Part shown: positions 39,605-42,757 of the stretch, in pieces
Position numbering within the stretch: position 1 is the stretch's first letter
Layout of the letters: each line of letters begins with the position of its first letter
NCBI RefSeq assembly: GCF_001049755.1
Contig: NZ_CVLB01000001.1
Location: forward strand, 1,382,995-1,446,994
Direction: 5' to 3'
DNA from: Brachyspira suanatina
Lineage (GTDB): Bacteria > Spirochaetota > Brachyspiria > Brachyspirales > Brachyspiraceae
Length of the DNA: 64,000 nucleotides
The notes under the pieces: generated by a model
What the model was told of the DNA's origin: nothing
What the model saw: the letters and a program-made list of their open reading frames with translations, nothing else
The model's database searches: none
Made by a program: the position numbers and the translations under genes

Positions 39605-40495
39605 TTAAAGATTTGATATTACTCTTATGTTTTCTCCATAAGACCATATGTTATTATTATCTTTATAATCAATAAATACAGATTTTGGAGAAATAAGCAT
39701 ATTTAAAGCAAAAAGAGAAAAAGAAAAAACATTATTTATATTAGGCAAACTACCTTCTAATATATTTGCTCTAAGCATTTCATTATTTACAGGGACTTTA
39801 TAATTACTGTAATTAGATTCTATTATATTTAATCCTACTTTTTCTATAAATTTTATAAGATTATCCTTATTAAAATTCACAATATGCTCAGTAGATAAAT
39901 ATCTCATAAGCATATCATAGCTGCATTGATCTTTCATAGGTGAATTAGGCACTTCAATATATAAATATCCATTAGGTTTAATCATATTTTTAATTTTTAA
40001 TAATATTTCAGATGGATTTTTAAAATGCTCTATTACATGTGAAAGCATTATTATATCATATTTATCTTCACTTTCTAAAAAATTAGGTTTTAAATCAATG
40101 TTGTATTTATTTTTTGCATAAAGCCTGGCATTATCATTGAGTTCATAACCGTAAACATCACAGCCATATTTTTTAAATATACTCAACAATAAACCATCAA
40201 AAGCACCTATTTCACATACTTTTTTATTTTTACAGTCAATATAATTATTTACAAAATTAAACTGAGATAAGCTTCTAGCATAACGCATTTTGCTTTTAGC
40301 TTTTTCAAATAATTTATTTTTTATATTATTATGATATTCATTCTTATACAGAAGATATATTTCTTCATCAGTGGGCTGATCTATAAAATAAAGCCCGCAA
40401 TTACTGCATTGATAAACCTTTTTGTGATTCTTCCATATATTTTTTATAATGCCGATTTCAGTATAATTGTTACTTCCACAAACCTCACATATCAT
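39605..40495 (-). CDS. SAM-dependent methyltransferase with N-terminal zinc ribbon
   Basis: 296 aa. Two Cys pairs near the start (CEVCGSNNY, CSNCGLYFIDQP) form a zinc ribbon. A class I methyltransferase fold follows (KVCEIGAFDGLLLSIFKKYG; DIIMLSHVIEHFKNPSEIL; NGYLYIEVPN). Proteins of this layout often modify sugars or surface polysaccharide precursors. It starts 24 nt after the nusA stop on the same strand and is probably part of the rimP-nusA transcript. It has a paralogue at 52194-52997. Confidence 0.85.
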   Translation of the reverse strand: MICEVCGSNNYTEIGIIKNIWKNHKKVYQCSNCGLYFIDQPTDEEIYLLYKNEYHNNIKNKLFEKAKSKMRYARSLSQFNFVNNYIDCKNKKVCEIGAFDGLLLSIFKKYGCDVYGYELNDNARLYAKNKYNIDLKPNFLESEDKYDIIMLSHVIEHFKNPSEILLKIKNMIKPNGYLYIEVPNSPMKDQCSYDMLMRYLSTEHIVNFNKDNLIKFIEKVGLNIIESNYSNYKVPVNNEMLRANILEGSLPNINNVFSFSLFALNMLISPKSVFIDYKDNNNIWSYGENIRVISNL

Positions 40496-40518: not shown

Positions 40519-42009
40519 TTATTCAAAAGAAAGCTCAATTCCGCATTTAGGACATTTAGTCATATCTTCTGTAATGCTAGATCCGCAGTTAGGACATTCA
40601 TAAACTTCTATCTCTTCAACAACCTCTTCAGAAGTAGTTTCATATTCATCATCAGAAGCCTCTACAACCTCAACAACATCTTTCATTACAAGCATTAAAT
40701 TATCAACAACATCTTTTTCGAGATTAGTTTTTTCCATAACATCTTCTACAGACATATTATATAATTCTTCTATAGAATTGATATTATTATCTATAAGAGT
40801 TTTTATTATAGCTTCATCAATACCCTGTAATGAATATAAATTACTTTCAAATACTTCTGCTGTTTCTAACTCTTCATCAGCAGCCTGAACTTCTTCTGCA
40901 GTATCTGAGAATATTTGATTCAAAGGAACTATATCTTTTAACAATTCAGGATTTTCTTTAATATCTGTTTCTGTTTTTATATCAAAATAATATCCTGTAA
41001 GCTGAGAAGCTAATTTCACATTATAACCGCTTTTACCCAAAGCAAGAGAAAGCTGTTCATCTGGTATAATAATCATAGCTTCTTTTTTTTCCGGATCTGT
41101 AATAATAATTCTTATAGGTTTAGCTGGAGTGATAGCCTCAGCGATATATTCTCTTATATCTTTAGACCATTTTACAACGTCTATCTTTTCGCCTTCTATT
41201 TCTTTAATTATAGATTGTATACGAATACCTTTTTGCCCTATACAAGCACCTATAGGATCAACTTCAGGCTTATTAGATGCAACTGCAACTTTTATTTTTA
41301 ATCCAGGCTGTCTTACTACATTTTTAATTTCTATAGTACCATCAGCAATTTCTGGTATTTCTAATTCAAAAAGCTTCTTTATAAAGTCAGATTTTGTTCT
41401 AGTAAGCAATATTTTTGTATGAACCTCTTTACCTTTTTCATCTTTACCCCCCTGAACTTTATATATATAAGCTCTTATTCTATCTCCAACAGTATAATGT
41501 TCTCTAGGAGATTGGTCTTTCTTCTGTAATTCCCCTTCTGTCTTTCCTAAATTTATATAGATAGTTCCTCTATGTTCTCTTTGGAAATATCCGTTTACAA
41601 GCTGATTTTCTCTTCTTTTAAATTCATTATATATAAGATTTTTTTCTAATTCAGAAATTTTTTGGAAAAATGCAGTTCTTGCTACTGTACTTTCTATTCT
41701 TCCGAATGCTTCTACCTGATCAACAAGTATTAAAACTTCATCACCCAAATTAATATCCTGATCTAATTTCTTAGCCTCTTCTAAAGATATTTCTTTATTC
41801 TTATTTCTAACTTCTTCTACAACACTAGCACCCTTATATACAGTAGGATTATTTTTATTGTCAAAATGAATATGAAATTTTATATCATCACCATATTTCT
41901 TCTTTAAAGCTAATTCCATAGTGGATGCTATTACTTCTTTTAAAAGCTCCACACTAATATCTTTTTCATCAGAAAGCTGCTGTAAATAAGTTCCAACATT
42001 TTCAAACAT
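40519..42009 (-). CDS. nusA: Transcription termination/antitermination factor NusA with C-terminal zinc ribbon
   Basis: 496 aa. The N-terminal RNAP-binding domain is followed by S1 (VGDRIRAYIYKVQGGK) and two KH domains (DPIGACIGQKGIRIQSIIKE; LSLALGKSGYNVKLASQLTG). After about residue 365 there is an acidic linker, one helix-hairpin-helix-like module (LQGIDEAIIKTLIDNNINSI), and an extra C-terminal zinc ribbon CPNC-x10-CPKC at 474-493. The zinc ribbon is not a standard NusA part. GGAG precedes the ATG. It follows rimP after 53 nt; the usual downstream infB is not present. Confidence 0.95.
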   Translation of the reverse strand: MFENVGTYLQQLSDEKDISVELLKEVIASTMELALKKKYGDDIKFHIHFDNKNNPTVYKGASVVEEVRNKNKEISLEEAKKLDQDINLGDEVLILVDQVEAFGRIESTVARTAFFQKISELEKNLIYNEFKRRENQLVNGYFQREHRGTIYINLGKTEGELQKKDQSPREHYTVGDRIRAYIYKVQGGKDEKGKEVHTKILLTRTKSDFIKKLFELEIPEIADGTIEIKNVVRQPGLKIKVAVASNKPEVDPIGACIGQKGIRIQSIIKEIEGEKIDVVKWSKDIREYIAEAITPAKPIRIIITDPEKKEAMIIIPDEQLSLALGKSGYNVKLASQLTGYYFDIKTETDIKENPELLKDIVPLNQIFSDTAEEVQAADEELETAEVFESNLYSLQGIDEAIIKTLIDNNINSIEELYNMSVEDVMEKTNLEKDVVDNLMLVMKDVVEVVEASDDEYETTSEEVVEEIEVYECPNCGSSITEDMTKCPKCGIELSFE

Positions 42010-42062: not shown

Positions 42063-42626
42063 TTAACAATTTAATCTTGCTTTTATGATATCTTTTTTTA
42101 ATATTTTTATATTTTTTTCATTAATAACATTATCTTCATCTGTTACAGTTATTATAATGTAATCATCTTCAGACTTTTTCAACATTGCATAAGCAGTAAT
42201 AAATTCTTCACCGTTTCTATATTTTATTTTTATAGGCATATCTTCAAATAATTCATATCTGTCATTAAATTTCCACCTAAATCCGGCAGAAGAAACTGTT
42301 ATGGTATAATCTCCCTCATCATAACCATTAGCTTTTATGCAATCCTGAATCTTTCTAGTAGTTTCTATACAATGAGTATGAGATACACTTTCTTTTTTCT
42401 TAAAAATAACAGCATATACTTTTTTATTATCAGAAATAGCTCTCACTTTCAAATCAAGCAGATATATATTACTTTTCTCTAAAATATCTTTTATACCGTT
42501 ATATAATATAATTTCATCTATTATATTATTATCTGCTTTCTTAGTAACTTTATCTTTTTTTAATTTCTTTTTTTTAGGCTCTCTGCCATATTCTTTTTGT
42601 TTCTGAGGTCTAGTTTTATTATTCAT
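42063..42626 (-). CDS. rimP: Ribosome maturation factor RimP
   Basis: About 187 aa. A basic Lys-rich N-terminal tail (to about residue 32) precedes the two RimP domains (IYLLDLKVRAISDNKKVYAV; SHTHCIETTRKIQDCI; YTITVSSAGFRWKFNDRYEL; SAG replaces the usual SPG). It supports 30S subunit maturation. The open frame extends to ATG at 42704, but that part encodes the terminator hairpin and has no ribosome site, so ATG at 42626 is taken. It is first in the rimP-nusA operon. Confidence 0.85.
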   Translation of the reverse strand: MNNKTRPQKQKEYGREPKKKKLKKDKVTKKADNNIIDEIILYNGIKDILEKSNIYLLDLKVRAISDNKKVYAVIFKKKESVSHTHCIETTRKIQDCIKANGYDEGDYTITVSSAGFRWKFNDRYELFEDMPIKIKYRNGEEFITAYAMLKKSEDDYIIITVTDEDNVINEKNIKILKKDIIKARLNC

Positions 42627-42658: not shown

Positions 42659-42699
42659 AAAAAAAGAGTGTCAGTTTTTGCTGCCAAAAACCAACGCCC
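42659..42699 (-). terminator. Intrinsic terminator (attenuator) in the rimP-nusA leader
   Basis: On the minus strand, a 15-position stem (42699-42685 with 42680-42666; 14 of 15 pair, counting three G-U) around GTTTTTG-GCAG-CAAAAAC is followed directly by seven T (42665-42659). It lies between the promoter and rimP, so it should stop a fraction of transcripts before the operon. Confidence 0.8.
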
Positions 42700-42729
42700 T
42701 TCATTACAAATATTTTCGGAAGTATTTTT

Positions 42730-42757
42730 ATTTTACCCTACTAATGATTTTTGTCAA
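42730..42757 (-). promoter_or_regulatory. rimP-nusA promoter
   Basis: Minus-strand TTGACA (42752-42757), a 16-nt spacer and TAAAAT (42730-42735). The expected start near 42723 leaves a leader of about 97 nt containing the terminator. Confidence 0.7.

Follow-up and report, generated by a model that had tools for sequence, protein, structure and literature searches.

A conserved leader terminator between promoter and rimP-nusA operon in Brachyspira: a likely transcription attenuator with NusA as candidate effector

Why should an intrinsic terminator separate the rimP-nusA operon from its own strong promoter? The question arises in a stretch of 64,000 nt from the gut spirochaete Brachyspira suanatina (GCF_001049755.1, contig NZ_CVLB01000001.1, 1,382,995-1,446,994), which is called the window below and in whose numbering all positions are given. 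A first-pass annotation of this DNA had claimed a strong promoter, a hairpin paired at 14 of 15 positions and a run of seven T before the first gene, and all of these are confirmed on the minus strand (Table 1).

Table 1 Features of the rimP leader and operon in the window.
Feature	Position	Strand	Remarks
-35 element TTGACA	42752..42757	(-)	from sequence; also upstream of the hairpin in relatives
-10 element TAAAAT	42730..42735	(-)	TACAAT, TAGAAT or TATAAT in relatives
37-nt invariant block ACTTCCGAAAATATTTGTAATGAAGGGCGTTGGTTTT	42687..42723	(-)	predicted +1 through 5' stem arm; 17 close congeners
Terminator hairpin	42666..42702	(-)	core GUUGG/CYRAC; one 1x1 mismatch (C.A) inside the stem
U7 tract, where termination is predicted	42659..42665	(-)	invariant in 17 congeners
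AGGAAAA segment	42648..42654	(-)	in read-through RNA, a possible pairing partner for the UUCC at the leader's 5' end
rimP, first operon gene	42063..42626	(-)	ATG at 42626; PF02576 below threshold
nusA	40519..42009	(-)	NusA N-terminal domain, KH domains, HhH-like region, C-terminal zinc ribbon
Third gene, class I methyltransferase	39605..40495	(-)	N-terminal cysteine motif CEVCGSN...CSNC

The two promoter elements lie 16 nt apart and form a near-consensus promoter that matches at 11 of 12 positions. It shares the top score among the 97 promoter-like sites of a 12-kb scan, in which weak matches were about equally common in shuffled sequence. From the promoter spacing, transcription is predicted to start at the A at 42723 (-), and the terminated leader RNA should be about 65 nt long, close to the short RNA of some 60 nt that had been anticipated. 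The stem (42699-42666, minus strand) reaches 14 pairs in 15 positions if G-U pairs are counted and carries the loop GCAG; RNAfold lengthens it to 17 pairs (6+11) flanking a single C.A mismatch, by recruiting part of the U-tract. The leader has a folding energy of -20.0 kcal/mol, as against -9.6 +/- 2.6 for shuffled sequences (z -4.1; none of 200 shuffles as low), and the hairpin-U7 ends 32 nt ahead of the rimP start codon.

Within the window there are nine hairpin-T-tract sites at -14 kcal/mol or better, and only that of rimP has a strong promoter on one side and a gene on the other. The window's 45 ORFs of at least 150 aa were scanned for a hairpin with dG of -9 or below and a T-tract in the 150 nt ahead of their first ATG; a single ORF, not rimP, gave a match, and its hairpin is weak (-9.7). 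The rimP ORF went unscored there, having been taken from an upstream in-frame ATG. When the whole genome was searched with a model of the hairpin, the rimP site (52 bits) was the only strong match and no further convincing copy emerged; the next match (31 bits) was rejected as an ordinary terminator between convergent genes.

Conservation of the hairpin in other Brachyspira had been named as a check on the proposal, and the hairpin passes it. Besides the genome under study, rimP could be located in all but one of 25 further genomes of the genus (named congeners include B. pilosicoli, B. hampsonii, B. innocens and B. alvinipulli), in three others of the family and in two of the order. TTGACA, hairpin and U-rich tract together precede rimP in all 25 genus genomes that have the gene (own included), in all three genomes of two other family genera and in one of the two order-level leaders, TTGACA being found ahead of the hairpin in 29 of the 30 leaders. 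The genus consensus of the stem is GRGnGUURG...CYRACnCUC-U7. Across 19 distinct sequences, twelve stem pairs show 98.7% pairing, four of these pairs with changes on both sides, and the covariation score is equalled by one of 500 shuffles and exceeds that of every slid register. Kinship alone can outscore shuffles in the absence of structure, so the slid control and the level of pairing outweigh the shuffle count. Since position and structure are both kept in every congener with rimP, the element is not a chance occurrence.

It might be supposed that the hairpin merely ends transcription of whatever gene lies upstream, and in B. pilosicoli and one other genus that gene (trxB-like and glnA-like, respectively) is indeed co-directional. 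Against this, the upstream gene here is cls, which is divergent, as are the upstream genes in six of the eight contexts; for B. suanatina itself orientation already refutes such a reading, and in every family member the TTGACA promoter lies between the upstream gene and the hairpin. Other neighbours include metallo-hydrolase, LRR protein, dehydrogenase-like, glycosyltransferase-like and glycosidase-like genes (names assigned partly by eye). Because the neighbours vary while the terminator stays with rimP throughout, it does not belong to an upstream gene, and we give that explanation practically no credence.

In a wider survey that scored the 150 nt before rimP with a threshold of -9 kcal/mol, a terminator was found in 61 of 79 rimP leaders (49 from elsewhere in the phylum and the 30 of genus, family and order, 25 of them from one genus), as against 5 of 396 random control windows from the same loci, a contrast that is somewhat generous given that the control windows mix coding and non-coding DNA. 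Without genus, family and order the count is 32 of 49. Many of the rimP hairpins outside Brachyspira read GAGUCG...CGACUC-UUUU; an exact pattern of this kind has matches in 28 of 149 genomes, about 11 of these close to rimP on the same contig. Two rimP leaders (L086 and L087) from a family, f37, whose genomes are near 1 Mb in size have a different terminator in the same place, AAGGUUCUUUU...CCUUAUU followed by a T-tract; if f37 is Borrelia, published 3'-end data may already include the premature end. Rfam searches returned chance matches only, with no rimP-leader match in the window at the gathering threshold or in the leader at E up to 10. Across 296 spirochaete genomes all RF01770 matches lay below the family's cut-off, and among 14 control genomes it was found in E. 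coli alone.

The gene order rimP-nusA-methyltransferase recurs in all six Brachyspira loci inspected. Elsewhere infB is a further gene of the rimP-nusA operon; here it lies outside the operon, on a different contig, where the gene preceding it extends almost up to infB and the 300 nt upstream, inspected by eye in this genome, hold no hairpin comparable to that of rimP. The RimP of the genus is highly divergent, missing PF02576 at E 1e-3 (with weak matches, about 1e-3, in some congeners), and has a lysine-rich N-terminal extension. NusA ends, after its HhH-like region, in a zinc ribbon (PF13248, residues 470-493, CPNCG...CPKCG), which is not a known feature of NusA from E. coli or B. subtilis.

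A leader intrinsic terminator placed between promoter and rimP-nusA, and conserved through genus and family, has the anatomy of a transcription attenuator, as the first-pass annotation had proposed, and on that ground the element is very probably one. RNA polymerase would start at about 42723 and make the ~65-nt leader, a fraction of polymerases would stop at the hairpin-U7, and read-through alone would yield the rimP-nusA-methyltransferase mRNA; we infer both termination in cells and its partial extent. Pairing of the leader to the 5' arm did not clearly exceed that of shuffles in eight representative leaders (best 8%), and the lack of a conserved antiterminator fits a protein effector. In B. 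subtilis, the leader terminator of ylxS(rimP)-nusA reportedly serves NusA autoregulation (Mondal et al. 2016, reviewed in PMC12288461). With this precedent, with an operon that includes nusA and lacks infB, and with no antiterminator, NusA is the best candidate, and by analogy an attenuator through which NusA autoregulates as in B. subtilis is the reading we consider probable. When NusA is plentiful, polymerase-bound NusA would aid hairpin formation and so increase early termination; when it is scarce, read-through would rise until NusA was restored.

How well the terminator suits such control depends on its quality. NusA-dependent terminators of the B. subtilis type are described as suboptimal, having a weak or non-canonical hairpin and/or an interrupted U-tract (PMC12288461), and by this yardstick the Brachyspira element is mixed: its unpaired stem position fits, and its perfect U7 does not. 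Where the lower stem meets the upper, each of the 16 distinct sequences of the genus has an unpaired position (C.A, U.C, U.U, G.G or C.U), which would keep the terminator slightly suboptimal and hence responsive to NusA; five unpaired states would be expected by chance about 1 time in 10, on our own estimate, so the pattern is no more than suggestive. Genus g2 of the family has a fully paired stem and an interrupted U-tract (UUUUCUUUUU, UUUUAUUUU), and both designs would leave the terminator short of optimal. A further family genus (L036) has neither feature. Against control by NusA it must be said that the mismatch, although genus-wide, is absent from two other family genera, of which one has an interrupted U-tract, and that a strong hairpin followed by a perfect U-tract could terminate without any factor.

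The leader holds more than a terminator. When the 17 close congeners are aligned from 110 nt before the -35 element through rimP, the 37-nt block is the longest invariant run (the next longest is 16), in an alignment where rimP codon positions 1, 2 and 3 are invariant at 67, 73 and 24%. The block includes 22 unpaired nt ahead of the hairpin, which a simple NusA-stimulated terminator would not need. Such invariance was unexpected, and termination alone does not explain it; outside the 17 congeners, the pre-hairpin leader is not conserved and the terminator is. In read-through RNA the UUCC of the leader is predicted to pair with AGGAAA at a probability above 0.5 in 15 of the 17 congeners, a pairing that offers no covariation test because both partners are invariant. 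AGGAAA is not an ordinary ribosome-binding site here, since over 20 nt separate it from the start codon of rimP; it is conserved at such a distance in many congeners and has normal spacing in a few, and in one locus (L025) an in-frame stop separates it from the ATG. A leader peptide from the in-frame ATG at 42704, before the stem, was considered and rejected: hairpin lengths differ by non-multiples of 3, so relatives do not share the frame, and leaders other than those of the 17 congeners lack this ATG.

The leader might instead be an attenuator whose effector is not NusA but, for example, RimP, NusG, an antiterminating RNA chaperone of the cold-shock type, or some protein that reads the invariant leader. 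The 37 invariant nt, 22 of them unpaired before the hairpin, do resemble a recognition site, and the E. coli operon is cold-induced, CspA-family antitermination being cited in that context (PMC6511841); all the same, it is NusA for which autoregulation has been reported, in E. coli as well as in B. subtilis, and beyond the 17 close congeners it is the terminator rather than the pre-hairpin leader that has been kept, so that we think an effector of this kind unlikely. A further reading, also on the unlikely side, is that spirochaetes have a rimP attenuator type of their own with a distinct recognition code, in which a GAGUC-like stem and CGAC(n)CUC 3' arms extend over much of the phylum, the 37-nt leader of one Brachyspira clade would be read sequence-specifically by NusA or another protein, and pairing of leader UUCC with AGGAAA of the read-through mRNA would add a second layer.

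The invariant 5' part, being single-stranded, could alternatively act by pairing in trans, the terminated leader being a small RNA and attenuation secondary; the enterobacterial rimP leader appears among ProQ-associated RNAs (PMC5391140), yet the 5' part is not conserved outside the 17 congeners, and this strikes us as very improbable. Hardly better, and if anything slightly worse, is the case for a repressor-bound DNA operator over the start site with the hairpin as a separate matter. The block does begin at the predicted +1; its invariance, however, runs on into the stem arm, its 25-mer has no second copy within 3 mismatches in this genome, and its 15-mer is no commoner there than a reversed control (54 vs 58). 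Finally, the terminator might sense nothing and act as a constitutive throttle that holds rimP-nusA expression low at a fixed ratio, as the strong hairpin with its perfect U7 and the missing antiterminator would allow; a change of promoter would do the same, and the long family-wide retention and the invariant leader suggest something more, which makes the throttle improbable, though not to the degree of the small RNA or the operator.

If control by NusA is true, leader-terminator autoregulation of nusA reaches another phylum, and NusA-stimulated termination, described as unstudied in Borrelia by those who mapped termination in that organism (PMC10319736), becomes open to a ready assay in spirochaetes. 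The invariant block is in any event a concrete place to seek sequence-specific reading of RNA. In the open-access literature, outside which most subscription journals lie, we found no description for Brachyspira and none of nusA leader control in Borrelia. The layout itself is already known from other bacteria, while we did not find the spirochaete case and its sequence version described; the finding strengthens the view of rimP-nusA attenuation as old and widespread, and no new mechanism is shown.

The closest parallel is B. subtilis ylxS(rimP)-nusA, where a leader intrinsic terminator likewise precedes an operon holding nusA and is reported to autoregulate nusA via NusA (PMC12288461). NusA dependence was measured there and is a prediction for Brachyspira, which differs in its operon without infB, its perfect U7 and its conserved stem mismatch. 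In E. coli, metY-rimP-nusA-infB has leader terminators t1 and t2 and is said to be NusA-regulated (PMC6511841); terminators again stand upstream of rimP, but unlike in Brachyspira the leader region includes a tRNA gene, several promoters and RNase III sites, and infB belongs to the operon. The rimP-leader of Naville and Gautheret 2010 (RF01770) is likewise a short hairpin terminator before rimP-nusA with no visible antiterminator, and the 32 nt from terminator to gene in Brachyspira fall inside the 4-130 nt given for it (PMC2965389). Its GGGc...gCCC signature is absent, however: the stem described here reads GGGCG...CACUC, other congeners have GAGnG...CnCUC, and the Brachyspira 3' arm is CYRACnCUC.
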